From: Halopiger xanaduensis SH-6
GTDB taxonomy: Archaea > Halobacteriota > Halobacteria > Halobacteriales > Natrialbaceae
Reading direction: 5' to 3'
Assembly (NCBI RefSeq): GCF_000217715.1
Contig: NC_015666.1
Location: 1,686,270 to 1,750,269, forward strand
DNA: 64,000 bases
The notes beneath the pieces were generated by a model, which ran no database searches, was not told the DNA's origin, and saw only the letters and a list, made by a program, of their open reading frames with translations. The translations under genes were made by a program, and so were the position numbers. This document shows, piece by piece, positions 3,153-51,117 of the stretch (positions are counted from its first letter, which is position 1; each line of letters begins with the position of its first letter).

Positions 3153-3181
3153 ACTAGTACCGGGGGAGCAAGGGAATTAAA

Positions 3182-4369: not shown

Positions 4370-4372
4370 GTG

Positions 4373-5320: not shown

Positions 5321-6444
5321 CGGTTCCCTCCGAGGTTCGTCCGGTCGAGACCGGATCCGTTCTCGGCGGTCGTCGATTCGCCTTGATTCTCACTCGGCCG
5401 GGCGACATCCGTCCGCTCGTCGAACGTGAACAACTCTCCGTTCGCGTCGCCGCTCTCGAGGAAGTCGACGATTTCCGCTTTCGTCAACTTCTCGGCGTGT
5501 TCCGACGACCGAACGATGTTCTCGGCCTCGTCGAATCCGTCCGGATAGTCGTAAGAGAGGTACTTCGTCGTCTCTGGGATGATCGAATACATCGAGTCGT
5601 TTTCGTAGGCGCGCCGTACCTCGCGATCGGTCATGATCTCCTCGTGGAAGGTCTCTCCGGGACGGCGACCGATCAGTTCGACGTCGATCTCGGCGGGATC
5701 GTGGCCGAACTGCGGCGCGAGCGTCTCGATCATTGCCTCCGTGAGATCGACGATCCGCATTGCGGACATCTTGTAGACGAATACTTCGCCACCCTGCATA
5801 CAGTCGATCGTTTGTGCGATCAGGTCGAAGACGTCATCATAGGTGAGGAAAAACCGGGTCATCGCTTCGTCAGTCAACGTCACAGGTCCGCCAGTGCGGA
5901 TCTGATCGGCGAAAATCGGGATCACCGACTGGGAGGAGTTGACAACGTTCCCAAACCGAACAGAGGAGAGACGGAGGTCCTGACGGCCGCTATGTTTGTT
6001 TCCGGCAGTAACCAGTTTCTCCCCGAGGAGCTTTGTTGTTCCCATCGTGTTCGCCGGATTGACCGCCTTGTCGCTACTCGTGAACACGACGCGCTGCACG
6101 CTCGAGTCGATAGCAGCATCCACGATGTTCTGGAGTCCGAGCGCGTTGGTCTTCACCGCCTCGAACGGGTTGTATTCGCAGACGTCGACGTGTTTCATCG
6201 CAGCGGTATGCACGACGACATCGATGTCCTCCATAGCTCGCTCTAAGCGATCCCCGTCTCGGACATCGCCTGCGAGAAAACGGCAGCGGTCGTCGTCAAA
6301 CTGGGACTTCACTTCTGCAAGTGCCGGTTCGTTGTTATCGAATATCCTAACGACGTTCGGATCCTGCTCGAGAAAACGGGGAATAAGTGACCGGCCCACC
6401 GACCCTGCACCGCCGGTGAGTAGCACGTTCTGTCCGGTAATCAT
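5317..6444 (-). CDS. pseB: PseB/CapD-like UDP-GlcNAc 4,6-dehydratase
   Basis: This 375-residue protein belongs to the CapD/PseB branch of the SDR family. VLLTGGAGSVG at residues 7-17 binds NADP, HTAAMKHVDVCEYNP is the typical substrate segment, and SSDKAVNPANTMGTTKLLGE carries the active-site region in which Met replaces the usual catalytic Tyr, the mark of these dehydratases. It would open the pathway from UDP-GlcNAc. It is the first gene of the minus-strand run. The C-terminal 30 or so residues are low-complexity and may be a halophilic tail. Inverting versus retaining chemistry is not decided. Confidence 0.82.
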   Translation of the reverse strand: MITGQNVLLTGGAGSVGRSLIPRFLEQDPNVVRIFDNNEPALAEVKSQFDDDRCRFLAGDVRDGDRLERAMEDIDVVVHTAAMKHVDVCEYNPFEAVKTNALGLQNIVDAAIDSSVQRVVFTSSDKAVNPANTMGTTKLLGEKLVTAGNKHSGRQDLRLSSVRFGNVVNSSQSVIPIFADQIRTGGPVTLTDEAMTRFFLTYDDVFDLIAQTIDCMQGGEVFVYKMSAMRIVDLTEAMIETLAPQFGHDPAEIDVELIGRRPGETFHEEIMTDREVRRAYENDSMYSIIPETTKYLSYDYPDGFDEAENIVRSSEHAEKLTKAEIVDFLESGDANGELFTFDERTDVARPSENQGESTTAENGSGLDRTNLGGNR

Positions 6445-6529
6445 CTACTACAGACTTCGCTATTAGCCCTATCAATCTGTTGGTAGACGGTACAACAGTT
6501 GTATCGCTTGTCTGTGCCCGTGAAACTAT

Positions 6530-8329: not shown

Positions 8330-8442
8330 TCGACGTCATCCTCGCTTTCCATTCTCGAGTGATAAGCATGCTGCTTCACGTGAGACACTACTTACGGTCG
8401 AAACTGACCCGCAATCGCCCCGATAGCGGTATGCGGCGCGGA

Positions 8443-10248
8443 TCACTCGACGGTCACGCTCTTCGCTAGGTTCCGCGGTTTATCGATCGAGCGTCCTTTT
8501 AGGTTTGCTACGTGATACGCGAACAGTTGGAAGTACACGTTCGCGACGAGCGGTTCGAAGATCCCTACGTTCGGAACCTCGAGTCCAATATCCAGCGACC
8601 CCGTCTCGAGTCCCGCGGAGACGGCCCCGATCGCCGGCGCGCCCCGCGTCTGCGCTTCTGTGACGTTGTTCATAGTCTCACCAGCTCGAGTGCCGTCGGT
8701 TAGCACAGCCAGTACCGGCGTCTTATCGGTTACGAGCGCCAGCGGTCCGTGTTTCAACTCGCCGGCCGCGAACCCCTCGGCGTGATCGTAGGAGATCTCC
8801 TTCAGTTTCAGCGCGCCCTCGAGCGCCACCGGATAGCCGAACCGGCGGCCGACGAAGAAAAACGATTCCGAGTCCCGGAACTCACGAGCGGCCTTGAGTA
8901 CGCGGTCTTCCTCGTCGAGTACCTGCTGAACGGCACCGGGAAGCCCGCGCAGATCCCCGAGGAGATCCCGTGCGTCAGCCGTCGAGAGTGTGCCGCGACC
9001 GCGGCCGATATCGACTGCGAGCAGTGCCAGCGTCGCGACTTGCGAAACGAACGTCTTGGTCGCGGCGACGCCAATCTCGGGACCGGCGCGGATGAACAGC
9101 GTATCATCAGCCTCCCGCGTCACCGAACTACCCAGCGTGTTGGTTACTGCGAGAGTTCGCGCGCCAGCCCCCGCCGCACGGCGGATCGCGCCGAGCGTGT
9201 CCGCGGTCTCGCCGCTCTGAGTCACCGCGATAACGAGCGTGCGCCACGGGTCGCGGCCGCCGTCGAACTCGTACTCGCTGGCGATTTCCACGGTCGCCCG
9301 CACGTCGGCGACCTCCTCGAGCAGCTGCGCCGCGTACTGGCTCGCGTAGTAGGAGGTGCCGCAGGCGACGAGTTGGATCTCCTCGAGTGACTCGAGACAC
9401 CCCTGCGGGAACTCGAGATCGAGATCGACGCCGGCACGATCGAGGTCGATCCGGCCCGATAGCGCCTGTCGTAGCGCCGTCGGTTGCTCGTGGATCTCCT
9501 TTCGCATGTAGTGTTCGTAGCCGCCCTTCTCGGCCGCGTCGGCATCCCACTCGACGGTCTCGACCTCTCGGTCGACGGCCGCTCCGTCGTGATAGACCGA
9601 CACGTCACCCGCCTCGAGCGAAACGATATCTCCGTCCTCCAGATAGGTCACGTCACGGGTGTGTTCGAGGAAGGCCGTCACGTCGCTCGCGAGGAACGAT
9701 CCATCGTCCCCGTGGCCGATGACCAGCGGACTCTCGTGACGCGTCGCGACGATCCGATCGGTCCCGGCCTGCACGGCGGCGATGGCGTAGCTTCCTTCGA
9801 GCAAGTCAACGACACGCTCGAGCGCCGAAAGCAGGTCGTGGCCGTCTTCGAGTTCTCGCTCGAGCAGGTGAGGAATTACTTCCGTATCGGTCTCGCTCGA
9901 GAACTCGTAGCCCGCCTCGACGAGTTCCGTCTTCAGGGACTCGTAGTTCTCGACGATCCCGTTGTGGACAACCGCGACGGTCCCGTTCTTGCTTGTGTGC
10001 GGGTGGGCGTTCGCGTCTGTCGGTGGTCCGTGTGTCGACCACCGAGTGTGTCCGATCCCACAGACGGCGTCTGGCTCTTTGGGGAAACGCAGTTCGCTCA
10101 CCTCGCCCGCTCGCTTCGCGACGGTTAGGCCCCGATCAACGAGCGCGACACCGGAGGAGTCGTAGCCGCGGTAGTCGAGGTTCTCGAGTCCACCGTAGAC
10201 GATCGGACCGGCGGGCTCCGTTCCGACGTAACCGACGATTCCACACAT
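8443..10248 (-). CDS. glmS: Glutamine-fructose-6-phosphate aminotransferase
   Basis: This 601-residue protein begins MCGIVGYVG, so processing of Met exposes the N-terminal Cys nucleophile of a class II glutaminase. The glutaminase half carries RWSTHG. Two SIS sugar-isomerase domains follow (VACGTSYYAS near the middle, FFVGRRFGYPVALEGALKLKE further on), and the C-terminus ends KPRNLAKSVTVE as in typical GlmS. Length is normal (about 600). It makes glucosamine-6-phosphate, the entry to UDP-GlcNAc. It lies directly after glmU, with one base between the glmU stop and its ATG, so the two are co-translated. Confidence 0.96.
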   Translation of the reverse strand: MCGIVGYVGTEPAGPIVYGGLENLDYRGYDSSGVALVDRGLTVAKRAGEVSELRFPKEPDAVCGIGHTRWSTHGPPTDANAHPHTSKNGTVAVVHNGIVENYESLKTELVEAGYEFSSETDTEVIPHLLERELEDGHDLLSALERVVDLLEGSYAIAAVQAGTDRIVATRHESPLVIGHGDDGSFLASDVTAFLEHTRDVTYLEDGDIVSLEAGDVSVYHDGAAVDREVETVEWDADAAEKGGYEHYMRKEIHEQPTALRQALSGRIDLDRAGVDLDLEFPQGCLESLEEIQLVACGTSYYASQYAAQLLEEVADVRATVEIASEYEFDGGRDPWRTLVIAVTQSGETADTLGAIRRAAGAGARTLAVTNTLGSSVTREADDTLFIRAGPEIGVAATKTFVSQVATLALLAVDIGRGRGTLSTADARDLLGDLRGLPGAVQQVLDEEDRVLKAAREFRDSESFFFVGRRFGYPVALEGALKLKEISYDHAEGFAAGELKHGPLALVTDKTPVLAVLTDGTRAGETMNNVTEAQTRGAPAIGAVSAGLETGSLDIGLEVPNVGIFEPLVANVYFQLFAYHVANLKGRSIDKPRNLAKSVTVE

Positions 10249-10249
10249 C

Positions 10250-11422
10250 TTATCCCCTCCTCACGATCGCATCGGTTTCGATCCGACCGCCGACGCTGAC
10301 GCCGTGGTCGACGGTCGCGCCGTCTCCCAAGACGGTCCCGGGTTCAACGGTTCCACCGTTTCCGATGACCGCGTTATCACCGACGACACCTCCGAGATCG
10401 ATCCCCTCGTGAACTTCTCCATCGACGACCATCGTCGTGGGCTCGCCCGTAATCGTCGTATTCGCACCGACGCGGGCGTTCTCCGCGACGATTGCGTCCT
10501 GAACGACTGCCCCCGATTCGATGACGGCATCGGGGAAGACGACGGCGTTCGAGACGACGGCGTTCGGTTTGATTGTGACGTTGTTCCCGATCGAGGTGCT
10601 GCCGCCGATCGTCGCGTTTGCCCCGATCGTCACGTCGGATCCGAGGACAGCGTTGTTGGCAATTGCGGATGCTTCTCGTCGCTCTTCTGCGTCCGTCGTG
10701 TCCGTTTCATCGATCACCGACGCGTTGACGTCGAGCAGATCCCAGAGGTGAGACACGTCTAGCCACCGTCCGCGATAGCGGACGGCCTGGATTGGTCGGT
10801 CTTCGGTGATCCGCTTGAGCGTCGTCGTAATCGCTAGTTCCCCTCTCTCGGTCGGCGTCGACCGAAGCGCGTCGAAGATCGACGGATCGAACCCGTACAC
10901 GCCCGCGTTGATGAGTTCGGACGTGACCGGCGGCGCCGGTTTCTCAGTAATGTCGGTGACGCGACCATCAGCGACCGTTACGACTCCGTAGTCGCTCGCG
11001 TGCTTCGATCGCGTGACGGTCATTACCGGTCCGTTGCCTGACTCGATTTCATCGCGGACGCGTTCAACGAGCGACGTTTCGACGAGTCTATCCCCGTTCA
11101 GGACGAGGAACTGACTCGAGATAGCCGATTGGGCCTGCAAAACGGCGTGGGCCGTTCCGAGCTGTTTATCCTGTACGACGTACTCGATGTCGATGTCCCA
11201 GTCGTCGCCGTCGCCGAAGTGGTTCCTGATCCGTTCCTGTTGATACCCGACCACGAGTACGATCCGCTCGACCCCGGCATCCGCGATCGCGGCCACGACG
11301 TGCTCGAGTATAGGCTGGTTGGCCACGGGGACCATTGGCTTCGGTCGCCGATTGGTCAGTGGCTCGAGCCGCCGTCCTTCTCCGGCTGCGAGGACGACGG
11401 CTGACACGGCATCGTCATTCAT
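10250..11422 (-). CDS. glmU: GlmU-like bifunctional sugar-1-phosphate nucleotidylyltransferase/acetyltransferase
   Basis: This 390-residue protein has an N-terminal nucleotidyltransferase domain with LAAGEGRRLEPLTNRRPKPM, then a left-handed beta-helix (hexapeptide repeats such as IGANATIGGSTSIGNNVTI) from about residue 250 to the end. This is the layout of archaeal GlmU-like enzymes that acetylate glucosamine-1-phosphate and couple it to UTP. Adjacency with glmS supports UDP-GlcNAc synthesis, which feeds both the nonulosonate genes and N-glycosylation. Other NDP-sugar synthases share the fold, so exact specificity is inference. Confidence 0.88.
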   Translation of the reverse strand: MNDDAVSAVVLAAGEGRRLEPLTNRRPKPMVPVANQPILEHVVAAIADAGVERIVLVVGYQQERIRNHFGDGDDWDIDIEYVVQDKQLGTAHAVLQAQSAISSQFLVLNGDRLVETSLVERVRDEIESGNGPVMTVTRSKHASDYGVVTVADGRVTDITEKPAPPVTSELINAGVYGFDPSIFDALRSTPTERGELAITTTLKRITEDRPIQAVRYRGRWLDVSHLWDLLDVNASVIDETDTTDAEERREASAIANNAVLGSDVTIGANATIGGSTSIGNNVTIKPNAVVSNAVVFPDAVIESGAVVQDAIVAENARVGANTTITGEPTTMVVDGEVHEGIDLGGVVGDNAVIGNGGTVEPGTVLGDGATVDHGVSVGGRIETDAIVRRG

Positions 11423-11715
11423 ATGATCTGCTTGGACGATGTGGGTTTGAATACTTACCGGTGGTGATTCCGCGATTTACTGGAAGCTACTCCTAGTTCT
11501 GCCGTCTGTGTGCCAATTCCCGGGTATTTATTACATCTGTATGTGAAACGTTTCTATATTGCAGCAATCAGTACGTACAGCTATCGTAGCGCTCTCGGCT
11601 ACCTAGCAGACGGAAAGAACGTAGAGAAACGATCCCGGCGGAATCTCGAGTAGTAATATCTGTTTTAGATACGGAGTTCGAAACTGTCTAACGGCCCCTA
11701 ATCGTTCGAGCAGGT

Positions 11716-12699
11716 ATGAACGTTCTCGTAACTGGCGGTGCAGGGTTCATTGGCTCACATATCACCGAGGGCCTACTCGAGACGGGTCACAACGTAATCA
11801 CGCTAGACGTTCTCGATCCGTACTACGACCTTGGAATCAAGGAGCGAAACATCGAAATCTGTCGTGAAACTGGCGGCGATCGCTTCGAGTTCGTCGAAGG
11901 ATCGATAACCGATGAAGAGCTGGTCCGAGACATCATCTCGAGCAACGACATCGAGTTCGTCTACCACCAAGCAGCGCAGGCGGGGGTCCGAACCAGCGTC
12001 GAGAACCCCAAGAAGCCCCACGAGATCAATACGACGGGGCTGCTCAATCTCCTCGTAGCGGCCGACGACCACGGCATCAAGCGGTTCGTCAACGCTTCCT
12101 CGTCGTCAGTCTACGGTGAGGTCGAGTATCTCCCGTACGACGAGGACCACCAGAACGTGCCCCAGAGCCCCTACGGTGTCACCAAACTCACGGCCGAACA
12201 CTACTGCCGAGTCTGGAACGACGTCTATGACGTACCGACGGTCAGTCTCCGATACTTCACCGTCTACGGACCACGGATGCGGCCGAACATGGCGATCACG
12301 AACTTCACCTCTCGGTGCCTGAACGCCAAACCACCTGTCATCTACGGTGACGGACAACAGACCCGTGACTTCACGTACATAGACGATATCGTCGACGCAA
12401 ACCTCTCCCTACTCGAGACCGACGCCGCCGACGGCGAGGTGATGAACGTCGGTTCGACCGGCAATATTACGATCGAGGAACTCGCCGAACACATCATCGA
12501 CGAGACCGGGACCGATGTTGGAATCGAGTATACAGCGGCCAAGGAAGCCGACGCGCGTCACACCCATGCAGACGTGACGAAAGCTCGCGAATTAATCGAC
12601 TACGAGCCCTCGACGAGCATCCGCGAGGGCGTCTTGAAGTTCGTCGACTGGTATCGGGAGAACCGCGACTGGTACGAGCCGTTAGTTCTCGCTTCGTAA
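11716..12699 (+). CDS. NAD-dependent nucleotide-sugar epimerase (GalE/UDP-glucuronate epimerase-like)
   Basis: This 327-residue extended SDR has NVLVTGGAGFIGSH at residues 2-15, SSSSVYGE with the catalytic Ser, and YGVTKLTAEHY with the Tyr/Lys pair. Its closest visible relative is the decayed C-terminal copy at 15042-15380 (about 18 differences over about 109 aligned residues by hand). Upstream lie 293 AT-rich bases without a gene. It starts the plus-strand glycosylation segment. The family covers UDP-Glc, UDP-GlcNAc and UDP-GlcA 4-epimerases; the FTVYGPRMRPNMA stretch resembles GlcA-type epimerases, which would fit a glycan using aglM products, but this is not proof. Confidence 0.88.
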   Translation: MNVLVTGGAGFIGSHITEGLLETGHNVITLDVLDPYYDLGIKERNIEICRETGGDRFEFVEGSITDEELVRDIISSNDIEFVYHQAAQAGVRTSVENPKKPHEINTTGLLNLLVAADDHGIKRFVNASSSSVYGEVEYLPYDEDHQNVPQSPYGVTKLTAEHYCRVWNDVYDVPTVSLRYFTVYGPRMRPNMAITNFTSRCLNAKPPVIYGDGQQTRDFTYIDDIVDANLSLLETDAADGEVMNVGSTGNITIEELAEHIIDETGTDVGIEYTAAKEADARHTHADVTKARELIDYEPSTSIREGVLKFVDWYRENRDWYEPLVLAS

Positions 12700-12932
12700 T
12701 TTCCCGTACCGCAACTCACACAACTGTTCAAGATCACCACAAATAATACCGACCAGTTGCGTGTACTCAGAGTACAGATCGCAGAAGAGGTTTTCATCCG
12801 CTTCCGACCAGAAAGTCGGCGTGATACAGCACGTACTGATCGCTGATAACTCATATGAGGCCGAACGGAGTGAGGATCCCGGTCCCCTCACGACATCCAT
12901 CCGGCGAACTCGAGTCCCGAGTCGCTCACAAG

Positions 12933-12942
12933 GCATATAATC
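12933..12942 (+). promoter_or_regulatory. TATA box of the nucleotidyltransferase gene
   Basis: GCATATAATC lies about 25-30 bases before the ATG at 12965. That distance places transcription start at or within a few bases of the ATG, so the mRNA is expected to be leaderless, as is common in haloarchaea. The decayed copy at 14278 keeps a weaker AAATAT at 14245-14250 at the same distance. Confidence 0.65.
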
Positions 12943-12964
12943 CCCCACTGAAATCGTATGACAT

Positions 12965-13705
12965 ATGCAAGCAGTCGTTTTAGCCGCCGGAAAGGGAACC
13001 CGCCTCCGGCCGCTCACCGATGACAAACCCAAGGTCCTCGTAGAGGTCGACGGAAAACCACTCATCGAGGACGTCTTCGACAACCTCATCGAGATCGGCG
13101 TCACGAAACTGGTCGTCGTCGTCGGTTACCAGAAGGAGCAGATCATCGAACGCTACGGCGACGAGTACGAAGGCGTCCCCATCACCTACGCCCACCAGCG
13201 CGAACAACTCGGCCTCGCACACGCCATCCTGCAGGCCGAACCCCACATCGACGACGATTTCGTCCTGATGCTCGGCGACAACATTTTCCGAGCCAACCTC
13301 GCCGACGTCGTCAACCGCCAGCGGGAACAGCGCGCTGACGCCGCCTTCCTCGTCGAGGAGGTCCCGTGGGAGGAGGCCTCCCGCTACGGTGTCTGTGACA
13401 CCAACGAGTACGGCGAAATCGTCGAAGTGATGGAAAAGCCCGCCGACCCGCCATCGAACCTCGTCATGACCGGTTTCTATACGTTCACGCCGGCAATCTT
13501 CCACGCCTGCCATCTCGTCCAACCCAGCGACCGTGGGGAATACGAACTCCCCGATGCGATCGACTTGCTCATTCAGTCCGGCCGAACGATCGACGCGATC
13601 CGCATGGACGGCTGGCGCATCGACGTCGGCTACCCCGAAGACCGAGACAAGGCCGAAGAACGGATCACCGACGACGAGTCTGCCGTCGCAGAACAGGAGG
13701 CATAG
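12965..13705 (+). CDS. aglF: AglF-like glucose-1-phosphate nucleotidyltransferase
   Basis: This 246-residue nucleotidyltransferase has LAAGKGTRLRPLTDDKPKVL at the N-terminus (the nucleotide-binding loop and catalytic Arg/Lys), LGDNIF for the metal-binding Asp, and a C-terminal GWRIDVGYPEDRDKA. It lacks the beta-helix of GlmU, as expected of a simple UDP/dTDP-glucose pyrophosphorylase such as AglF. It would supply UDP-glucose to the aglM dehydrogenase 3 kb downstream. The start is fixed by a TATA box about 27 bases upstream. A dTDP-glucose (RmlA-like) specificity is the main alternative. Confidence 0.85.
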   Translation: MQAVVLAAGKGTRLRPLTDDKPKVLVEVDGKPLIEDVFDNLIEIGVTKLVVVVGYQKEQIIERYGDEYEGVPITYAHQREQLGLAHAILQAEPHIDDDFVLMLGDNIFRANLADVVNRQREQRADAAFLVEEVPWEEASRYGVCDTNEYGEIVEVMEKPADPPSNLVMTGFYTFTPAIFHACHLVQPSDRGEYELPDAIDLLIQSGRTIDAIRMDGWRIDVGYPEDRDKAEERITDDESAVAEQEA

Positions 13706-13783
13706 GCCCGCCACAGCGCGGAGTTGCTTCTAAGCTGAACGAATTCGCTATCAGAATCTCCCTGACGAGTTACGTCCTCGCGA

Positions 13784-14038
13784 TTACGACTCGAGTCGCT
13801 CCGTCGCCCATTGAGACAGCCGCGTCCACCCCGAGTCGCGTTCCGTGCGCTCGATGTAGCGCTCGAGAGTCAGCTCCGGGTTTTGACGCCACTCTGTCGG
13901 TATCGAACCGGCGAGACCGTAATCGTACTGCGTTTCAGGTTCGCGAAAGACGGTGTCGGTCGTCTCGTCGTAGTAGTCGAGATAGCCGTCCGTACGAATA
14001 CCGATGAGCCGGAGCTCAGAGTCGTCAGTTGCGGTCAT
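13784..14038 (-). CDS. Small haloarchaeal protein of unknown function
   Basis: An 84-residue acidic protein starting MTATDDSELRLIGIRTDGYL. A start 6 codons earlier is possible but adds residues that look non-coding. Composition is typical of haloarchaeal coding sequence (many D/E, aromatic-rich DGYLDYYDETT). No motif or family is recognised. It lies between the intact nucleotidyltransferase and its decayed copy, on the opposite strand, so it may be a relic of whatever was inserted here. Confidence 0.5.
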   Translation of the reverse strand: MTATDDSELRLIGIRTDGYLDYYDETTDTVFREPETQYDYGLAGSIPTEWRQNPELTLERYIERTERDSGWTRLSQWATERLES

Positions 14039-14277
14039 TTCGGACCACCGTTCCATCGATTCTGTTCGAGGGTTTCATGAGTGTTGCCTCCTCTCAAGCG
14101 TAGTCTCTCAAAGGCTTTCTGGAATGATGGTCCACAAAGGAGACGAGAGAGCATCCGAGCGACGGTGGGACAGAACGCGTTCCCATACGATTTTCGCAAC
14201 GGTGCAGCGTCTCTCCAAAGCTCCGTTCGCTCAGTTACCCGAAGAAATATCTCCGCAGGGGAGGAGCACCTGATCGT

Positions 14278-14529
14278 ATGCAAGCAGTCGTACTGGCCGC
14301 GGGCAAGGCACTCGCCTCCGGCCGCTGACCGACGACAAGCCAAAAGCACTCGTCGAGGTTGACGGGACGCCGCTCATCGAGGACGTCTTCGATAATCCCT
14401 TTGAACTCGGCGTCACGAAATTAGTTGTCGTAGGATGTCAGAAATAATAGATTATCGAACGCTACGGCGACGAGTACGAGGGCGTGTCGATCACATACGC
14501 CCACCAGCGCGAGAAACTCGGACTCGCGT
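14278..14529 (+). pseudogene. Decayed 5' copy of the nucleotidyltransferase gene
   Basis: The first 252 bases align by eye with the intact gene at 12965, beginning ATGCAAGCAGTCGT in both. The copy has lost one base around codon 10 (a frameshift that brings in TGA at the PLTDDK motif) and one whole codon in the VVVVG segment, where TAA TAG stops also appear. It breaks off at GGACTCGCGTT, where the intact gene continues with the rest of the enzyme. A TATA-like AAATAT is still present at 14245-14250. It cannot make a functional enzyme. Confidence 0.88.
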
Positions 14530-14947
14530 TAAGTTGGTCAATGAGGGCATCTACATAGCCTGACAAGAGATACTCGTCAGTATCCCACAATCGCTGTTTA
14601 ATTTATCGGCGATGGATCCGTCGGATCTTGTGATCTGGAAGAAGACGGAAGTGCAACAAACGCAACAAACACCGCTCGATTGTCTGCGTGTGTACGGGGT
14701 GTTTCTCCAACTTTTGTAGAATGCAGCGTTTAAAGCGACTTGACGGGTAGAGAGCAATATCTTCGAATGCTTCGTGCTCATCGAAGTAGATCCATGTCTG
14801 ATGCGTCGATCGACCGTCGAGATGATCGGGTATCTAATATCGTCCGAGTAGCTGATTGGCGATCTGCTGAGTGAACATTTCAAGGCGCTTGAATTGCGAG
14901 TACTCCTCGTCGGGAAGCCAGACCAGGTGACTAAGATCGTCACTCAT
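14530..14947 (-). pseudogene. Relic of an unknown gene with two in-frame stops
   Basis: Read on the minus strand from an ATG at 14947, one frame stays protein-like across the whole stretch: MSDDLSHLVWLPDEEY at the start, THQTWIYFDEHEAFED in the middle and WDTDEYLLSGYVDAL near the end. It is broken only by TAG at 14834-14836 and TAA at 14603-14605. The acidic, aromatic-rich content with two stops indicates a dead gene. It separates the two decayed fragments of the glycosylation genes, so it may be what was inserted between them or a neighbour carried along. No family is recognised. Confidence 0.5.
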
Positions 14948-15041
14948 TCAGAGCATCCTCCAACAGACTCTTATCGGCCCTATCAGACCCGATTTAGTGC
15001 CAGCGACACACCGTCTGAGGATACTCAATACCCAAGTAAAT

Positions 15042-15380
15042 TTCATTTACATCGACGACGTCGTCGACGCGAATCTCTCATTTCTCGAGACGGATGCTGC
15101 GGACGGCGAAGCGATGAATATCGGCTCGACGGGGAACATCACGATTGAAGAACTCGCCGAACACATCATCGACGAGACGGGCGCCGATGTCGGTCTCGAG
15201 TACGACGACGCCAAGGAGGCCGACGCGCGCCACACTCACGCCGACGTGTCCAAGGCGAACGAACTGATCGGCTACGAACCGTCGACGAGCATCTGTGAAG
15301 GAGTCTCACAATTCGTCGACTGGTATCGCGACAACCGGGAGTGGTACGAGCCGCTCGTTCTCAATTCCTGGGCGGTCTAA
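15042..15380 (+). pseudogene. Decayed 3' copy of the nucleotide-sugar epimerase gene
   Basis: From FIYIDDVVDANLSFLETD onward the frame matches residues about 219 to the end of the intact epimerase at 11716-12699, with about 18 differences over about 109 residues in a hand alignment. The N-terminal two thirds, including the NAD-binding motif and the catalytic Tyr/Lys, are absent, so it is an enzyme fragment even though the frame is open from an ATG at 14997. With the nucleotidyltransferase fragment at 14278 it forms the remains of a second gene pair. Confidence 0.85.
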
Positions 15381-15414
15381 ACTGTTTTCGGGTCCTACCT
15401 GACCGAGCACCAGT

Positions 15415-16332
15415 TCACAGGTACGGCTCACACACTCGCTCTACTCCCTCCTCGAGTCCGACATCAGGTTCCCAGCCAGCTGCGGCGCGGAACTTCGACG
15501 CGTCGGCGCAGGTGTCGTGGACATACACGTCTTCAGGGATTGGGTTCTCGACGTACTCGGGATCGACGTCCGTCCCGAGCGTCCGGTTGAGAAGGTCGAC
15601 GAGTTCATTAAACGAAGTTCGATCGCCGGTCCCGACGTTGTAGACGCCCTCGAGTTCGTGTTCGGCGGCCAGTTCAAGCGCACGAACGACGTCGGAGACG
15701 TGTGTGAAGTCGCGGGTCTGGGTGCCATCCCCATAGAGTTCCGGCGCCCGACTATGGGCGATGTCGTCGGCGAACTGCGCGATGACGTTGGCGTACTCGC
15801 CCTTGTGGCCCTCGGCACCCTCGTAGCCCTGATAGACCGAGAAGAATCGCATCCCACACATTGACATCCCATAGTGGTTCGAAAAGTATTCTGCGTAGCG
15901 CTCGCGGGCCAGCTTCGAGGCTTCGTAGCCGGTGTTGACCGCCACCGGCACGTCCTCAGGCGTCGGCTCGGTTCTGGTGCCGTAGATCGACGAGGTCGAC
16001 GCGTAGACGACGGTGTCGCAGCCGTCTTGGCGCGCCTGTTCGACCGTGTTGACGAACCCTTCGACGTTCACGCGGGTGCCCCGTGTCGGGTCTTCCTCGT
16101 GCATCGCGTATGACGAGAGCGCAGCCAGATGAAACACGACGTCGACGTCGGTCGGGAGGTCGTCCTCGAGGACGCTCGCCTCGACGAACTCGACGTCGTC
16201 AGAGAGGTTGTCCGCCTCGCCGAGATAACAGTCGTCGACGGCGATCACGTCGTTACGGCTCGCCAACTCGTTTGCAAGATTCGAGCCGATAAATCCCGCG
16301 CCGCCCGTGACAAGAATCCGGTAGTTTTCCAT
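15415..16332 (-). CDS. NAD-dependent nucleotide-sugar epimerase/dehydratase
   Basis: This 305-residue extended SDR starts at the ATG at 16332, just before RILVTGGAGFIGSN; a longer open frame upstream has no domain and overlaps aglM. It shows STSSIYG and YEASKLARERY (catalytic Tyr and Lys) and DFTHVSDVVRALELA. It is distinct from the 11716 gene. It reads toward the epimerase relic and is divergent from aglM, with 147 bases between them that should hold both promoters. A UDP-glucuronate or UDP-glucose 4-epimerase role in the N-glycan pathway is inference. Confidence 0.87.
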   Translation of the reverse strand: MENYRILVTGGAGFIGSNLANELASRNDVIAVDDCYLGEADNLSDDVEFVEASVLEDDLPTDVDVVFHLAALSSYAMHEEDPTRGTRVNVEGFVNTVEQARQDGCDTVVYASTSSIYGTRTEPTPEDVPVAVNTGYEASKLARERYAEYFSNHYGMSMCGMRFFSVYQGYEGAEGHKGEYANVIAQFADDIAHSRAPELYGDGTQTRDFTHVSDVVRALELAAEHELEGVYNVGTGDRTSFNELVDLLNRTLGTDVDPEYVENPIPEDVYVHDTCADASKFRAAAGWEPDVGLEEGVERVCEPYL

Positions 16333-16479
16333 AGGACGGCATTCGCAGAACTCCCTCAAAAAGTCGCGGATTCGATCGTCGGCGACCGCGCAACTCGAGA
16401 CGCGAGCCGCTCGGTTCGGACGCGGATCGCACCGTCGCGACCCGAAAACCACTAACGCCCGCCACGCGTTTCGCCCGCT

Positions 16480-17775
16480 ATGAACGTCTCTATTATCGGC
16501 AGCGGCTACGTCGGGACCACCGTCGCCGCCTGCCTCGCCGATCTGGGCCACGAGGTCGTCAACGTCGAAATCGACGAGGACATCGTCGACGCGATCAACG
16601 CCGGCGAAGCGCCGATCCACGAGTCGGGCCTCGAGGAGCGGATCGCCGAACACGCCGGCACAGCCCTCCGCGCGACGACGGACTACGACGAGGTTCTCGA
16701 CACCGATGTCACGCTGCTCTGTCTCCCCACCCCGCAATCGGACGACGGCAGCCTCGATCTCGCGCCGATGCGCGCCGGCGCCGAGATGCTCGGCGATGCG
16801 CTCGCCGTCAAAGACGACGACCACCTCGTCGTCGTCAAAAGCACCGTGCTGCCGGGAACGACCGAAGAGGTCGTCGCGCCGATCCTCGAGGAGCAGTCGG
16901 GAACGGCCATCGGCGACGGCATCGACGTCGCGATGAACCCCGAGTTCCTGCGGATGGGGACCGCGGTGCAGGACTTCCTCGAGCCGGACAAGGTCGTCCT
17001 CGGAACCCGCACCGATGCAGCCGCCGAACAGCTTCGCGACCTCTACGCCCCCATCTTAGAAAACGACAGCACCCACCTCGTCGAGACCGACGTCCGCGAG
17101 GCCGAACTGATCAAGTACGCGAACAACGCCTTCCTCGCCTCGAAGGTGTCGCTGGTGAACGACCTCGGCAACATCGCCAAGGAGTACGGCGCGGACGCCT
17201 ACGAGGTCCTCGAGGCGGTCGGCCTCGACGACCGCATCTCCGAGCGATTCATGCGCTCGGGACTGGGCTGGGGCGGCTCCTGCTTCCCGAAGGACGTCGC
17301 TGCCCTGCGGGCCGGCGCCCGTGAGCAGGGGTACGAGCCCGAACTACTCGACGCCGCCGTCGCCGTCAACGACGAGCAGCCGCGGCGGCTCGTCGACCTG
17401 CTCGCGGACCACGTCGACCTCGAGGGCGCGCGGATCGCCGTCCTCGGTCTCTCGTTCAAGCCGGGAACCGACGACATCCGCAAGTCCCGCGCGCTGGACG
17501 TCGTCGAGTACCTCCGCGAGCGCGGTGCTGCGGTCGTCGCGTACGACCCCGTCGCGGTGGACAACGTCCGCGAGCAGTATCCCGACCTCGAGATCGAGTA
17601 CGCCGACTCGGCCGCGAGCGCGCTCGAGGGCGCCAATGGGGCAGTCGTCGCGACCGACTGGCCCGAGTTCGACGACCTCACGTTTGACGGGATGGCCAAA
17701 CGGGTGCTCGTCGACGGGCGGCGGATCGACATCGACGAGGAGGAACTCGAGGTGTACGAAGGACTGACCTGGTAA
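16480..17775 (+). CDS. aglM: UDP-glucose 6-dehydrogenase AglM
   Basis: This 431-residue UDP-glucose/GDP-mannose dehydrogenase has the Rossmann motif IIGSGYVG at residues 5-12, KSTVLPGTTEEVV, MNPEFLRMGTA, and the catalytic Cys268 in GWGGSCFPKD. A second nucleotide-binding domain follows (VLGLSFKPGTDDIRKSRALD). Length and motifs match AglM, which oxidises UDP-glucose to UDP-glucuronic acid for the S-layer N-glycan. Followed 81 bases later by aglJ on the same strand. Family assignment is secure; UDP-GlcA as product is the normal expectation in this context. Confidence 0.93.
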   Translation: MNVSIIGSGYVGTTVAACLADLGHEVVNVEIDEDIVDAINAGEAPIHESGLEERIAEHAGTALRATTDYDEVLDTDVTLLCLPTPQSDDGSLDLAPMRAGAEMLGDALAVKDDDHLVVVKSTVLPGTTEEVVAPILEEQSGTAIGDGIDVAMNPEFLRMGTAVQDFLEPDKVVLGTRTDAAAEQLRDLYAPILENDSTHLVETDVREAELIKYANNAFLASKVSLVNDLGNIAKEYGADAYEVLEAVGLDDRISERFMRSGLGWGGSCFPKDVAALRAGAREQGYEPELLDAAVAVNDEQPRRLVDLLADHVDLEGARIAVLGLSFKPGTDDIRKSRALDVVEYLRERGAAVVAYDPVAVDNVREQYPDLEIEYADSAASALEGANGAVVATDWPEFDDLTFDGMAKRVLVDGRRIDIDEEELEVYEGLTW

Positions 17776-44959: not shown

Positions 44960-45494
44960 ACCGAACCGTGTCTCGTAAACCAAGATCAAAACTTCGGTTT
45001 CCGAGACCGACGGTCGATCGGGTCGCCGCGCGACGCTCGAGTCCCGCCGAAACCGATGGTCACGCGAACGCGAGCCGAATCAACCCGGCTGAAACGGTTC
45101 GTTCCTGTCCGGTTTCACGAGTGTATCGGTATCAGGAACGAGCGTAGAACCGGGCCGTCAGCTTGTCGAACGCTCGAGAACTGCCAGCTGCCGATTCACG
45201 ATGAAGTAATCCGGTATTGTCTCCGCGTCCTGACTGAAACGGACGGCGCGCTTATGCGCCGATTCGGTCGGGTGGTGTGAAACGAATGCGATCCGGTAGT
45301 ACGCGGTACGCACGGCGACGGCATCGCGGGGCGAGAGTAGGACGACCAGACCGCGGCGGCACGGAGCGGCGAGTTCCGGTCGGAAGGGCGGGCCCGTCGT
45401 CGAGGCGCGCGCGTGGACAGTACGCGAGAGCGCGTGCCAGTTTTGAAAGATCGAGTTCGGGCGACTGTGCCCGGGGTAACTGCGGTGATCCGCG
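44960..45494. other. Gene-free 535-base divergent region
   Basis: No gene supported on either strand; open frames here are basic and unlike haloarchaeal proteins. It must contain the promoters of bioY (minus) and the large repeat protein (plus). A dyad GGCGC-GCTTAT-GCGCC lies at about 45244-45260, 235 bases before the repeat-protein start. No clear TATA box close to the GTG at 45495 was seen, so that mRNA probably has a leader. Confidence 0.45.
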
Positions 45495-48400
45495 GTGAGC
45501 CGCACACGCGTTGGGCTCATCGCGGTCGCGCTCGTCGTCGGGGCGGTGCTCGTCGGTGCAGTTGCGCTGCCGTCGCTCGGCGTCGGCCTCGGTCCGTTCG
45601 ACGGGTCCGGAATCGGTTCGGCGGACGACGGCACCGACCTCGAGGACGGCACGCAGGCGCAGTTCCAGGACGACGACCCGTCGGATGAGGGCAGTACAGA
45701 CGAGTCGACGGAAACGGCATCGGCCGGGAACGATGGCGAATCGGACGTTCTGGCGCTCGGCGCGCCGGTAGCGATGCAACCGCAGGAGGGGGATGAAGCC
45801 GAGAGCGACGAGGCTGCGTCCTCGAGTGCGGACGCGACCGCCCAGCAGACCGAAACTGGAACCCAGGAGGACGAGGACCCCGTCGAAGCGGGCGTCGAAG
45901 ACGGAATCGAACTCGCGCAGTCCCAGGGCGTCGAGGTGACCCAGGAACAGCGCGCGGCCGCGGTCGACGGCGCGCGGCAGGCCGCCGCCCAGCACCAGTC
46001 GGCCGAGGCCGAACAGGTGCAGGCCGCGACGGCGGGTGCGGTCCACGGCTCGCTGATGCAGGAGCAGTCGGTCAACGCCACGCAGATCCAGTACGCGGTC
46101 GGCGGCGCGACCGACGGGGCGCTCGCCCAGCACCAGACGGTCAACGCCAGCCAGCTGCAGAGCGCGACCTGGGGCGCGACCCACGGCGCACTCGCCCAGC
46201 AACAGCGCGTGACCGTCGAGCAGATCCAGGTCGCGACCTACGGCGCCGCCGCGGGCGCCGCCAGCGAAGCCGGCGACAAGGGCGTCGACAGCAAACCGAA
46301 AATCCAGGAAGCGGCGCAGGGCGCGGCCTACGGCGTCTTGGAGCAGTACCAGAAGGTCACGGTCGAACAACGCCAGCAGGTCACGCTCGAGCACGTCCAG
46401 CACGCCGCGGCCGGGGCGTCGGCCGGCGCGCTCGAGGGGAGTACCCGAAGCGTCCTCGAGGCGGAACGGGAGCAGACGATCGAGGTCGAGCAACGCCAGC
46501 GCGTCGACATCAAGCAGGTCCAGAAGGCCGCGACGGGCGCCGCGAAGGGCGCGCTCGAGCAGCGCCAGTCGGTCTCGGTCGAGCAGACCCAGGCCGCCGC
46601 ACGCGGGGCGGGCAAGGGGCCGCTGAAGCAGGTCCAGTCCGTCAGCGTCGAGCAGGTCCAGCACATCTCGATCACGCAGATTCAGGAGGCCGCCTTCGGC
46701 GCGTCGAAGGGCGCGATCGAACAGAGTCAGGAAGCCAGCGTCGAGCAGATTCAGGCCGCAGCGGACGGCGCCTCGCAGGGCTCGCTCCTGCAGCGCCAGG
46801 AGGTGTCGATCGCGCAGATCCAGCACGCGGCCACCGGCGCCTCGAAGGGCGCCGTCCAGTCGGCGGTCCAGCACCAGGTCGTCGAGGTCGAGCAGATTCA
46901 GGCCGCCGCACGCGGCGCCGGCGAGGGCGCGGTGACCCAGAAGCAGATCGTCGATGTCACGCAGGTACAGACGCTTGCGCAGGGCGCCTCGAGCGGCGCG
47001 CTCTCGCAGTCCCAAGGGGCCAGCGTCGAACAGATCCAGACCGCAGCCCGGAGCGCCTGCGAGGAGACCGCGCGGGTCGTCCAGTCCCAGCGGATCAGCG
47101 TGACGCAACTCCAGACGCTGACCCAGGAGACGGCGGCGGACGCGACCCAGTACGCCGTCACTGAAGGGATCACCGACGCGACGCAAATCGTCCAGTACGT
47201 CGAGGTCACCGTCGTCCAGAAAATCGAGCAGGTCGACGAACTCGAGGGGACCGCGTCGATCGAGTTCCCCGATCAGGAGTCCGACGGCGCGAGCGTCGTC
47301 GTCGACAGCGTCGAACTCTCGGAGGGCGGCTTCGTCGCGATCTACGAGGGCGTCGCGGTCGATACCGATCCCGACGCCGTCGTCGGCACCTCCGCCTATC
47401 TCGAGGCCGGCGAACACGAGGACCTCGAGATCGCTCTCGACGAGCAGCTCAACGAGAGCCAGGCGCTCGTCGCGGTCGTCCACCACGATACGAACGACGA
47501 CGGGTCGTTCGACTACGTGGACTCCGACGGCGCCGAGGACGAGCCCTACGTCACCGCGGGTGGCGGGCCGGTGCTCGACGGGGCGTTCGTTACGGTCGCC
47601 GACGATACCGACCGCGAGGCCACGCTCAACGTGACCGACCAGACTGGCGACGGCGAAACGCTCGTCGTGGACGAGGCCAACGCCTCCGTCGACTACGCCG
47701 TCACCGCCGAGTACGACGGCGAGCGCGTCGACAGCGAGTCGTTCGACGCGGGCCAGTCCGTCGAGAATCTCGAACTGGACCTCGAGCCGCTGCTGGAGGA
47801 GAACGCGACCGTCAACGTGTCCGTTCGCGCGCTCGAGGACGACGCCGAACTCGCGAACGAGTCGATCGCGTATACGGTCGCGACCGAACCGTCTGAACCC
47901 GAACCCGAAGCGACGCTCAACGTGAGCGATCAGGAAGGCGACGGCGAGACCCTGCTGGTCGACGATGCGAACGCGTCGGTCGAGTACGTCGTCAGCGCCG
48001 AGTACGACGGCGAACGGGTCGACAGCGAGCCCTTTGCTGCCGGCGAGGCGGCCGAGAACGAATCGATTGCGCTCGAGCCGCCGCTCGAGAACGACACGAC
48101 GGTCGACGTCTCGGTGCGCGACGCCGCGACGGACGAGGCGCTGGCGAACGACTCCGTCGCGTACGCGGTCGCGGACGAGGGGCCGGAACCCGGGCCCGAA
48201 CCCGAACCGGAAGCGACGCTCGACGTCGGCGACCAGACCGGCAGCGGCGAGGCCCTCGTCGTCGACGAGGCCAACGCCTCCGTCGACTACGCGCTCGCCG
48301 TGACCGACGAGGACGGCGAACAACGCGCCGCGAGCGACGCGTTCGCGGCCGGCGAAACGGTCGAAAACGAGTCGCTCGCCCTCGAGCCGCCGCTCGAGGC

Positions 48401-49772
48401 GAACGCGACGCTCGAGGTGGCAGTCGTCGCAGCCGACGGCGACAACGCGACGGCCGACGGCAACGGGACCGCCGCCCCGCTCGCGAACGAGACGATCGAG
48501 TACACGGTCGACGAGTCGCCCGCGTTCGGCGTCGAGTTCGTCGACTGCTCGCGCGCGGAGGTGACGGGCTCGTTCGAGGACGGCGATACGGTCATCGTGG
48601 CCACCAGCTTCTACGAGTCCGGCGGCTTCGGCAACTCGATGGGCGAGTACGCGTTGAGCGTCGGCGAGAACATCGAGGGTCCGGTCGAGGGGACGGTCGT
48701 CTTCGAGACCGGCGAGGACTTTGCCGTCTCCGAGACCGAGGACGGCGCGTACGTCGAGGTCCCGCAGGGGCAGTTCGGCTCCGCGATCACCGGCATCGTC
48801 TCGCCGGACGCGACCCCCGGCTCGATCGACTACCCGAACCCCGACGCCAGCGAGTGCCTCGAGCAGGTCCGGCCCGAACAGCCCGAAATCGGCGTCAAGG
48901 AGACGACGCCGACGGACGACGGGGAGGCCGTCGAGGTCACCTTCGGCTACGAGAACCCCAACGACGCGCCGCTGTTCGTCGACAGCGCGTTCGTCGAGGG
49001 GACGACCGACGACGAACCGCCCGAAGAACTCGAGTCCGGGACGGGCGAGTTCACCGTCGAGTGGACGCCCGAAAGCGACGACGAGCAACTGGTGTGGGAA
49101 GTCGATCTGAGCCGCTACGACTACGAGGAGGCGCTCACAGCCGAAACGGCGACTGCGGGCGAGATCGCGCCGACCGAACCCGCCGCGTACGAGGTCTCGA
49201 TCGCGGATACAAACGCACCCGTCGAGCAGGGCGAGTCGCTCACGATCAATGCCGACGTCGAAAACGTTGGCGGCGAGGCCGCCGAACAGCCGGTCACGCT
49301 CGCCGTCGCCGGCACCGAAACCGACTCCGTCTCGGTCGGGCTCGATCCCGGCGAATCGGAGACCGTGACGCTGAACGCCGAGACGGCCGAGTTAGAACCC
49401 GGCGAGTATCCGATTACCGTCTCGAGCGAGAACGATACGGTCGAGACGAGCGTGACGATCGAAGCGGCCGCCGAGTCCGATGCCGGCGACGCGGGTGCTG
49501 CCGGTGCCGGTGCGAACGACTCACCGGAAGCGCCGCCCGAAGACGGAACGGACACCCAATCACCCCAGGGGCCGCCCGAAACGCCTGACGAGTCGCCGAA
49601 CTCGGGAGCGACTGACGACACGGCTGATTCCGGAACCGAGCCAGCCGACGAACCGACCGGTCCCGGTCCGTCGCCGGAGCCGAACGGGTCGGCCGACGCA
49701 GCCGACCAGTCCGGCGACTCGCAGCCACCGGCTGAACCGACCGCCGGCGAACCGGGGATAACAGTGGTCTGA
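45495..49772 (+). CDS. Giant surface protein with Gln-rich 23-residue repeats, DUF7282-like and CARDB-like domains
   Basis: This 1425-residue protein begins with GTG: a stop codon lies 9 bases upstream in frame and the signal/anchor helix (VGLIAVALVVGAVLVGAVAL) starts at residue 6, so the start is certain. Layout: acidic linker about 30-135; about 17 Gln-rich repeats at 135-580; a DUF7282-like beta domain at about 585-705; three related beta modules of about 100 residues (705-1010) joined by EPEPE-type linkers; a Cys-containing domain (FGVEFVDCSRAEV); a CARDB-like beta domain (YEVSIADTNAPVEQGESLTI, about 1235-1320); and a Pro/Ser/Asp-rich tail of about 100 residues without a membrane helix. 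It must be outside the cell, anchored at the N-terminus or released. Function unknown; a structural or adhesive role is inference. Confidence 0.88.
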   Translation: MSRTRVGLIAVALVVGAVLVGAVALPSLGVGLGPFDGSGIGSADDGTDLEDGTQAQFQDDDPSDEGSTDESTETASAGNDGESDVLALGAPVAMQPQEGDEAESDEAASSSADATAQQTETGTQEDEDPVEAGVEDGIELAQSQGVEVTQEQRAAAVDGARQAAAQHQSAEAEQVQAATAGAVHGSLMQEQSVNATQIQYAVGGATDGALAQHQTVNASQLQSATWGATHGALAQQQRVTVEQIQVATYGAAAGAASEAGDKGVDSKPKIQEAAQGAAYGVLEQYQKVTVEQRQQVTLEHVQHAAAGASAGALEGSTRSVLEAEREQTIEVEQRQRVDIKQVQKAATGAAKGALEQRQSVSVEQTQAAARGAGKGPLKQVQSVSVEQVQHISITQIQEAAFGASKGAIEQSQEASVEQIQAAADGASQGSLLQRQEVSIAQIQHAATGASKGAVQSAVQHQVVEVEQIQAAARGAGEGAVTQKQIVDVTQVQTLAQGASSGALSQSQGASVEQIQTAARSACEETARVVQSQRISVTQLQTLTQETAADATQYAVTEGITDATQIVQYVEVTVVQKIEQVDELEGTASIEFPDQESDGASVVVDSVELSEGGFVAIYEGVAVDTDPDAVVGTSAYLEAGEHEDLEIALDEQLNESQALVAVVHHDTNDDGSFDYVDSDGAEDEPYVTAGGGPVLDGAFVTVADDTDREATLNVTDQTGDGETLVVDEANASVDYAVTAEYDGERVDSESFDAGQSVENLELDLEPLLEENATVNVSVRALEDDAELANESIAYTVATEPSEPEPEATLNVSDQEGDGETLLVDDANASVEYVVSAEYDGERVDSEPFAAGEAAENESIALEPPLENDTTVDVSVRDAATDEALANDSVAYAVADEGPEPGPEPEPEATLDVGDQTGSGEALVVDEANASVDYALAVTDEDGEQRAASDAFAAGETVENESLALEPPLEANATLEVAVVAADGDNATADGNGTAAPLANETIEYTVDESPAFGVEFVDCSRAEVTGSFEDGDTVIVATSFYESGGFGNSMGEYALSVGENIEGPVEGTVVFETGEDFAVSETEDGAYVEVPQGQFGSAITGIVSPDATPGSIDYPNPDASECLEQVRPEQPEIGVKETTPTDDGEAVEVTFGYENPNDAPLFVDSAFVEGTTDDEPPEELESGTGEFTVEWTPESDDEQLVWEVDLSRYDYEEALTAETATAGEIAPTEPAAYEVSIADTNAPVEQGESLTINADVENVGGEAAEQPVTLAVAGTETDSVSVGLDPGESETVTLNAETAELEPGEYPITVSSENDTVETSVTIEAAAESDAGDAGAAGAGANDSPEAPPEDGTDTQSPQGPPETPDESPNSGATDDTADSGTEPADEPTGPGPSPEPNGSADAADQSGDSQPPAEPTAGEPGITVV
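45900..47240 (+). repeat. Tandem coding repeat, about 17 units of roughly 69 bases
   Basis: Within the giant protein each unit reads approximately V-E-Q-(I/V)-Q-x-A-A-x-G-A-x-x-G-A-(L/V)-x-Q-x-Q-x-V-S, for example VEQIQAAADGASQGSLLQRQ, IAQIQHAATGASKGAV and VEQIQAAARGAGEGAV. Short extra units of 8 residues (VEQRQQVT, VEQRQRVD, VEQVQHIS) repeat only the first part. Units differ at DNA level as well as in protein, so this is an old, selected repeat rather than a recent expansion. Confidence 0.88.
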
Positions 49773-49965: not shown

Positions 49966-50256
49966 TTAGTGCTGGTGGCCGGTCGCTTCGCCGAAGGTGA
50001 CGCCGAACCGCTCCTCGAAGAGGTCCATGATGCGCTCCTCCTGGGCCTCGAGGTCCTCGTCCCCGCCCTGGCCGTGGTGAACCATGTGGTGGGCGCGGCT
50101 GGCGAAGGATAGCAGGACGATGTCGCCGACCGTCTCGGCGGACGTCTGGTCGCCTTCCGCGACGAGGTCCACGAGCCCCGCGGGGACCGTCACGTCGTCT
50201 GTCGTTTCGTCGTCGGCCGTGATCGAGACGGTGATCGTCTCCACGTCGTCGGACAT
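49966..50256 (-). CDS. Haloarchaeal conserved small protein
   Basis: This 96-residue acidic protein starts MSDDVETITVSITADDETTD; upstream in-frame sequence is basic and non-coding in character. A helix with several His follows (SRAHHMVHHGQGG) and the C-terminus is EERFGVTFGEATGHQH. The His-rich segments could bind metal, but that is speculation. No function is recognised. Confidence 0.65.
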   Translation of the reverse strand: MSDDVETITVSITADDETTDDVTVPAGLVDLVAEGDQTSAETVGDIVLLSFASRAHHMVHHGQGGDEDLEAQEERIMDLFEERFGVTFGEATGHQH

Positions 50257-50391
50257 ATCCCTACGGTCGGGAAGCGTGCCTAAAGGTGCTGTGGCTTGCG
50301 ACGACGGGTTGGACGGGTTGCGGACCGGCAGAAACGCCGGCGAGGAGGGGTGCCCGTGGCGTTTTTGCCCGTTGACGTCGAAGTTTCGCAC

Positions 50392-50535
50392 ATGCCCACC
50401 GTCGAACTCGAGGAGGAGACGATCGAGCGACTGGACGAACTGCGCGTCGACGACGAGTCCTACGACGAACTGGTCACCGAACTCATCAACATCTACGAGA
50501 CCAGCGAGTACACGCTCTTTCGCGCCGGCGACTGA
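50392..50535 (+). CDS. 47-residue protein, DUF7557-like (antitoxin-like)
   Basis: A short protein reads MPTVELEEETIERLDELRVD then DESYDELVTELINIYE and ends TLFRAGD. This pattern (a strand, a Leu-rich helix, a second helix) recurs in haloarchaea as a small family, from memory DUF7557, and resembles the DNA-binding half of VapB/RHH antitoxins. No toxin lies next to it. A longer in-frame start upstream gives a basic, unlikely N-terminus. Confidence 0.7.
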   Translation: MPTVELEEETIERLDELRVDDESYDELVTELINIYETSEYTLFRAGD

Positions 50536-50634
50536 CGGTGCGGTCGGGCGTCGCCGATCCGCAGGCGTTGTCCCCGGTCGGTGCTCGGTTGTCGCCGAAT
50601 AGCGGTCGTCGGTCGGCCGACCGTATCGCGCCGA

Positions 50635-51117
50635 TCAGTTCTCCGCGGCGATTTCTCGAATCGACTCCCACTTGCCGTTCGACTCGAGTTTCGACTGGAG
50701 CTCGTCGGCGTACTCCTGCGTGAGCCGTTCGGCCGCCTCGCGTTTCGCGCCCTGTCCGCTCCCGCCGTCGCCGCCGAGGCCGAGCGCGCCTTTGATCGAG
50801 TCGACCAGACCGCCGCCCGAGCCGCTCGCGTTGCCGGCGCCGCTGCCGCTGCCGCCGCCGGCACCCGGACCGCCCATCGCGCCCATTCCCTGATCCACGT
50901 TCTCGAGTTCGGGCATGATCTGATCGACTTTGTCGGTGTTCGCGACGATCCGGGCGCGCTCGGGATCGTCGGCGTGCTCGATCTCGAGTTCGGTCGCGGT
51001 CATGATCAGGCTCCACTGCTGGTTCGAGAACCGCGACTCCGCGATTCGCGAGGAGAACTCCTGATCGAGGGTCATCCGCGCCCCGACGATCCGGTCGGTC
51101 CAGTCGGTGTCGCTCAT
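50635..51117 (-). CDS. Haloarchaeal conserved protein, probably DUF5799
   Basis: This 160-residue protein has a conserved N-terminal domain (MSDTDWTDRIVGARMTLDQE, FSNQQWSLIMTATELEIE), a long Gly/Ser/Met linker (about residues 76-115) and a C-terminal charged helix ending KWESIREIAAEN. It matches my memory of haloarchaeal DUF5799 proteins; no function known. The glycine-rich linker is unusual for a protein of this size. Confidence 0.7.
   Translation of the reverse strand: MSDTDWTDRIVGARMTLDQEFSSRIAESRFSNQQWSLIMTATELEIEHADDPERARIVANTDKVDQIMPELENVDQGMGAMGGPGAGGGSGSGAGNASGSGGGLVDSIKGALGLGGDGGSGQGAKREAAERLTQEYADELQSKLESNGKWESIREIAAEN

Follow-up and report, generated by a model that had tools for sequence, protein, structure and literature searches.

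A glutamine-rich 23-residue repeat domain in apparently exported proteins of Halobacteriales, with a predicted all-helical, solenoid-like fold

Results

A modular, apparently exported protein with a Gln-rich repeat domain

The window analysed here, a 64,000-nucleotide stretch of Halopiger xanaduensis SH-6 DNA, contains a + strand ORF (45495-49772, GTG start) encoding a 1425-aa protein whose Gln-rich repeat domain (aa 128-586; 45876..47252, + strand) is, on balance, probably a folded, haloarchaea-specific alpha-solenoid of about 17 single-helix 23-residue repeats, which would serve a modular, apparently exported protein as its constant part for scaffolding or recognition. The repeat domain is real and apparently undescribed, and none of the family models searched covers it. 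The ORF has collinear homologs across Natrialbaceae, and its repeat domain showed a dN/dS of 0.15 against a same-genus relative. An antisense ORF at 45252-49088 (1278 aa) was rejected as a mirror of the conserved coding strand without independent support.

The protein begins with a hydrophobic segment (aa ~1-40; 45495..45614) that holds its N-terminal hydropathy maximum (2.79), lacks a lipobox cysteine and, judged from its sequence, may be a signal peptide or a signal anchor. An acidic low-complexity linker follows (aa 41-127; 45615..45875), and aa 1-127 as a whole are weakly conserved. Behind the repeat domain lie a DUF7282 domain (PF23951, E 8e-37; aa 587-700; 47253..47594) and about three repeats of ~97 aa (aa ~705-1010; 47608..48524), which have a 291-bp tandem period, start at aa 709, 806 and 907 and are probably Ig-like domains with a beta-sandwich fold. 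Relatives carry similar ~97-aa repeats in other copy numbers. The next domain (aa ~1011-1218; 48525..49148) is conserved, has no Pfam match and is of unassigned type; it was also matched in haloarchaeal loci without a matched Gln-rich repeat (e.g. L065-L069, L071, L072 and L074). A CARDB domain (PF07705, E 2.9e-06; aa 1235-1314; 49197..49436) precedes a Pro/Glu/Asp/Ser-rich C-terminal tail (49452..49769) without a membrane segment. All of these parts are on the + strand. DUF7282 and CARDB are the only Pfam assignments on the ORF, and NCBIfam and PHROGs gave no match for the protein. Hydropathy revealed no C-terminal membrane anchor in the Halopiger protein, which might have an uncleaved N-terminal anchor. 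The first-pass annotation had described a solenoid-like domain in a giant surface protein; the solenoid-like repeat stood, and the protein, with its signal-like N-terminus, is apparently exported and would be located at the cell surface.

Period, units and composition of the repeat

Shifting aa 131-590 by 23 residues gave 28.6% self-identity, whereas the highest value at any shift in 500 shuffled sequences was 16.7%. A 23-residue profile built from 14 hand-placed units detected 17 units in the Halopiger protein, in agreement with the roughly 17 repeats of that length noted in the first-pass annotation, and 18 main helices were predicted in the domain. The repeats lie within the region named in that annotation (45495-47240), except that the domain reaches a little further, to about 47252. 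The 8-residue half units said to punctuate the array were found at aa 288-295 (VTVEQRQQ; 46356..46379), aa 329-336 (IEVEQRQR; 46479..46502), the latter adjoining the lowest-confidence stretch of the structural model (aa 324-334), and aa 383-390 (VSVEQVQH; 46641..46664), all on the + strand. Across the whole sample, the profile counted 9 to 22 units per protein.

The family consensus from 472 distinct units is [VAI][TSDN][VIA][ETK]Q[IV]QxA[AT]xG[AG]xxG[AS][LVI]xQxQx, in which Q5, Q7, G12, G16, Q20 and Q22 were set by the search pattern, so that their invariance in the consensus table carries no evidential weight. The linker and the start of the helix follow a strict alternation, L-x-Q-x-Q-x-V-x-V-x-Q-x-Q, which the half units retain. 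The domain comprises 17.0% Gln, 2.6% Asp and 2.8% Lys, compared with 2.2%, 9.9% and 0.1% in aa 701-1425; the earlier description as Gln-rich and Asp-poor thus applies, but not that as Lys-poor. Net charge per 100 residues is -5 in the repeat domain and -24 in aa 701-1425. Hydrophobicity is low, with a maximum 19-residue hydropathy (KD19) of 0.69.

Searches against known families and folds

Each of 51 members was scanned against Pfam with no credible match to the repeat; TPR, HEAT, ARM, TAL, Sel1 and LRV were absent from their matches at E up to 10, and Curlin matched none of them. Weak Pfam matches (Rhabdo_glycop_CD, DUF1833, Gp7_6th and others) were dismissed as scattered, inconsistent between members and, where curated cut-offs are given, under them. 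The repeat profile had no credible match among all PDB sequences, and the open-licence papers searched neither mention DUF7282 nor describe the repeat. The first-pass statement that the repeat belongs to no recognised family is therefore borne out in Pfam, NCBIfam, PHROGs and PDB sequences.

Foldseek searches against the PDB returned local matches to TAL effectors and designed repeat proteins. Among the 50 matches listed per search, none was a global fold match (TM above about 0.5), the best TM being 0.41 by target length. The similarity to TAL effectors (Foldseek E 1e-5) was set aside, with a TM of just 0.10-0.16 reflecting a local helix pattern only. A viral origin was likewise rejected: related proteins were absent both from phage records and from viral contigs, no PHROG matched, and Foldseek gave no match to viral structures at E below 0.001.

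Distribution and architecture of relatives

The repeat domain was matched in 103 of 125 Natrialbaceae genomes (about 82%), including Natrinema, Natronorubrum, Natrialba, Natronococcus and Halopiger. Copies in this family are mostly single, collinear and 58-92% identical over ~447 residues. Two Natrialbaceae genera, g2 (six genomes) and g10 (five genomes), had no detected copy and offer a natural contrast for function. A sample of 394 genomes from the order contained 121 with the repeat, 78 from Natrialbaceae and 43 from four other families, and a phylum sample of 394 genomes gave no match outside the order Halobacteriales. Plasmid matches were confined to Halobaculum and Halomicrococcus and are annotated as hypothetical.

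A hydrophobic N-terminal segment is present in 63 of 64 long members. A divergent short relative of 556 aa (L092:3562-5229) has a twin-arginine signal and nine repeat units, and its genome (G107) also holds a long form. In nine members the C-terminus is a membrane segment with basic residues after it; as far as the listed C-termini show, they belong to other families and not to Natrialbaceae. The part constant across members is the Gln-rich repeat domain, and the C-terminal modules change from one lineage to another, comprising DUF7282, Ig-like repeats, CARDB, beta-helix/NosD, TSP3 repeats and tails rich in Thr/Pro or Glu. Some haloarchaeal exported proteins have C-terminal modules of the same kinds (DUF7282, CARDB, NosD/beta-helix or TSP3); these modules have been described, but their models miss the N-terminal repeat.

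Predicted structure

Two AlphaFold2 runs each predicted an all-helical domain. Run 1 (Halopiger domain, 51 sequences) gave a mean pLDDT of 88.4 and a pTM of 0.86 with helices only; its model scores were 88.4, 81.6, 60.7, 53.7 and 49.9, three of the five being poor, and aa 324-334 and aa 385-388 fell below pLDDT 50. Run 2, on a relative from another family that is ~50% identical, gave a pLDDT of 89.8, a pTM of 0.88 and 18 helices in 419 aa, with four of five models good (89.8, 88.6, 88.0, 83.7 and 32.2). Its alignment comprised 33 sequences, none from Natrialbaceae, and shared about ten rows with run 1. The domain as a whole is thus not predicted to be disordered, the check that the first-pass annotation had proposed, although pLDDT values of 88 and 90 on a repetitive sequence are to be read with the caveat that AlphaFold2 can impose order on it.

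In the models, each repeat forms one helix of ~16 residues (approximately unit positions V3 to L18) and a linker of ~7 residues (QxQxVxV), and neither model contains a strand of three or more residues. The predictions point to tandem all-helical units of the alpha-solenoid structural class. This differs from the alpha/beta solenoid suggested earlier, in which V-S-V-E-Q-I-Q was strand-like: in both runs the linker takes up V-S-V, and E-Q-I-Q is part of the predicted helix. The G-x-x-x-G small-residue spacing ascribed to the helical part is present and probably serves close helix packing.

Conservation and a putative binding face

The repeat domain is the best conserved part of the protein, with 66-77% identity between genera, followed by DUF7282 (63-71%), aa 701-1425 (49-59%) and the N-terminus (31-41%). 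Its length is near-fixed within Natrialbaceae. Orthologous units are 72% identical, compared with 39% for units within one protein, which indicates that the array is old and that, within Natrialbaceae at any rate, its units do not overwrite each other. Identities at helix positions 8, 11 and 15 are 0.07-0.09 between the units of a protein and 0.58-0.67 between orthologs.

Residues kept at single units include His184 (helix 3, unit position 15; 46044..46046), found in 95% of its own family and 68% of other families; the stretch from the aromatic residue 226 to His230 (helix 5, unit positions 11 and 15; 46170..46184), in which residue 226 is W in Natrialbaceae and Y/F/W in other families, and His230 is kept in 97% and 95%, respectively; Glu272, Gln275 and Tyr279 (helix 7, unit positions 8, 11 and 15; 46308..46331), at 97-100% in the own family and 81-100% elsewhere; and Lys340 (helix 9, unit position 4; 46512..46514), at 100% in both (all + strand). 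When small and aliphatic residues and Gln are left aside, the kept residues are H184, H230, E272, Y279 and K340 on helices 3, 5, 7 and 9, the exception being E299 on helix 8, which is also kept across families but more weakly; the thresholds were picked after viewing the data, and the pattern is suggestive only. Helices 3, 5, 7 and 9 would lie in one layer of the solenoid, where their conserved polar residues, presumably exposed, suggest a putative binding face.

Helix arrangement from couplings

The direction of the helices was deduced from direct-coupling analysis of unit pairs (effective ~130 sequences). Adjacent units showed a 17-10' coupling at 5.7 sd (5.5 sd in the other families alone) with size compensation (A-T, S-V, G-T, V-A), and the weaker adjacent pairs 9-18', 8-17' and 18-9' share an antiparallel line with it. 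The strongest adjacent coupling, 9-16' (6.3 sd), was discounted because it came from a single orthologous unit class. Units two apart were coupled at parallel offsets (17-14' at 4.8, 9-6' at 3.9, 15-15' at 3.5 and 8-8' at 2.6 sd), and no coupling rose above 2.4 sd when the units were separated by three to six positions or the pairs were shuffled. Neighbouring helices are thus quite likely antiparallel, and the couplings fit, and suggest, a two-layer solenoid with every second helix side by side and two repeats of the same type per turn. A parallel arrangement, first considered because helix and linker cover equal lengths, is disfavoured on the strength of these couplings.

Genomic neighbours

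BioY/ABC/CbiQ transporter genes are located upstream of the ORF and DUF7545, DUF5799 and hexapeptide genes downstream. Most neighbour genes are syntenic in nearly all of the 18 loci compared, and the DUF7545 and DUF5799 genes (window 49966-51117) are beside the repeat-protein gene in 18 of 18. A functional link to these neighbours was considered and rejected: the synteny is present, but their apparent functions are unrelated and nothing connects them with the repeat protein. Elsewhere in the window, 2103-16824 encodes NeuB (nonulosonic acid synthase), a DegT aminotransferase, epimerase/GDP-mannose dehydratase types, an SIS/GATase (GlmS-like) protein, a pair of nucleotidyl transferases and an ABC transporter whose membrane part is fused. 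This region, mostly of lower GC content (56-66%), looks like a set of surface glycan genes for a sialic-acid-like sugar pathway.

Discussion

If the predicted fold is correct, the Ala/Gly face of each helix (A9, G12, A13, G16, A17) would allow very close helix packing, an extended QxQxVxV linker of ~7 residues would follow each helix, and antiparallel consecutive helices would place two repeats in each turn and alternate helices in one layer. The repeat domain would then be a constant N-terminal module, with C-terminal modules varying between lineages: a rigid cell-surface scaffold that displays variable domains and that may bind a partner or ligand through the face on helices 3, 5, 7 and 9. 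A bolder proposal, which we put forward only tentatively, is that single-helix 23-residue repeats with Ala/Gly faces and Gln-rich linkers make up an undescribed solenoid fold restricted to Halobacteriales, whose role would be that of a conserved receptor or platform for assembly at the cell surface, with a defined alternate-helix binding face.

TPR, HEAT, ARM, ANK, Sel1 and TAL proteins resemble the predicted fold of the Halopiger domain in stacking tandem helical repeats into an elongated all-alpha solenoid, TAL effectors being the best local Foldseek matches. Units of TPR, HEAT, ARM, ANK and Sel1 repeats have ~30-44 residues and two or three helices each (PMC11514114). The Halopiger repeat differs in having one predicted helix per 23 residues, no sequence match to these families and the low TM to TAL effectors given above. 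TAL repeats fall within the same range of unit length and helix number. Designed helical repeat proteins (DHR; 5cwf, 5cwg, 5cwc), also regular helix-loop-helix arrays, gave the highest TM (up to 0.41), but they are designed, have short loops and larger hydrophobic cores and lack Gln-rich linkers. The leucine-rich variant (LRV) repeat is built from units of ~24 residues that combine a single alpha helix with a 3-10 helix and have a core rich in Leu; it shares the short unit and single alpha helix, but the Halopiger repeat has no Pfam LRV match.

The strict Q/V alternation that even the half units preserve could be taken to point to an alpha/beta solenoid, with V-S-V-E-Q-I-Q as parallel strands stacked on one another and a short helix in the Ala/Gly part; with E-Q-I-Q helical in both predictions and strands of three residues or longer absent from both, we regard this as quite unlikely. 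Curlin repeats have beta structure and conserved Gln, and the Halopiger repeat is similar to them in length. Together with the 17% Gln and regular QxQ motifs, this might suggest a curli-like or amyloid-like fibre domain with Gln side chains in ladders, but none of the 51 members matched Curlin, both predictions (pLDDT 88-90) were all-helical, and the units are not interchangeable (72% vs 39%), unlike those of a homogenised fibre array; such a fibre is highly improbable. Low hydrophobicity (maximum KD19 0.69), low complexity and a unit number of 9-22 between families would suit a spacer, flexible or weakly ordered, that does no more than lengthen a surface protein and whose sequence follows composition rather than fold. 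A spacer would hardly be expected to be the best-conserved part of its protein, under purifying selection, with near-fixed length in Natrialbaceae, unit-specific conserved residues and confident helical predictions, and this explanation, too, seems improbable.

Most helices contain G12-x-x-x-G16, and one of the 51 members weakly matched Gly-zipper_YMGG (E 0.0055), as might be the case for a membrane-active glycine zipper, with oligomers of GxxxG helices in or on the membrane. The presence of Gln and charged residues in the helices, and a maximum 19-residue hydropathy far under membrane level, make a zipper extremely unlikely. A rival of another kind concerns function and is compatible with the helical fold: the protein could be a classical fibrillar adhesin whose repeat is an adhesive tip or stalk for cell-cell aggregation. 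The features of adhesin type seen here are the signal-like N-terminal segment, CARDB and the ~97-aa repeated domains, which may form a stalk, and the family shows a multidomain layout with CARDB, Ig-like domains and Thr/Pro-rich stretches. Known adhesive Pfam domains are lacking, as is a C-terminal anchor in the Halopiger protein, so we consider an adhesin possible but rather doubtful. We retain the single-helix alpha-solenoid, probably acting as scaffold or recognition module, as the preferred reading.

Should the fold hold, it would be an alpha-solenoid whose units have a single helix each rather than two or three, with little hydrophobic core, and presumably stable in molar salt while carrying far less negative charge than the other parts of the protein. 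Fold classification, protein design and the study of the little-known haloarchaeal cell surface could all profit from it, and the unit-specific conserved residues render the idea of a binding face directly testable. Since the repeat domain is kept in about 82% of the Natrialbaceae genomes searched and in four other families, and is the best conserved part of its own protein, it is probably needed by the cells that carry it.
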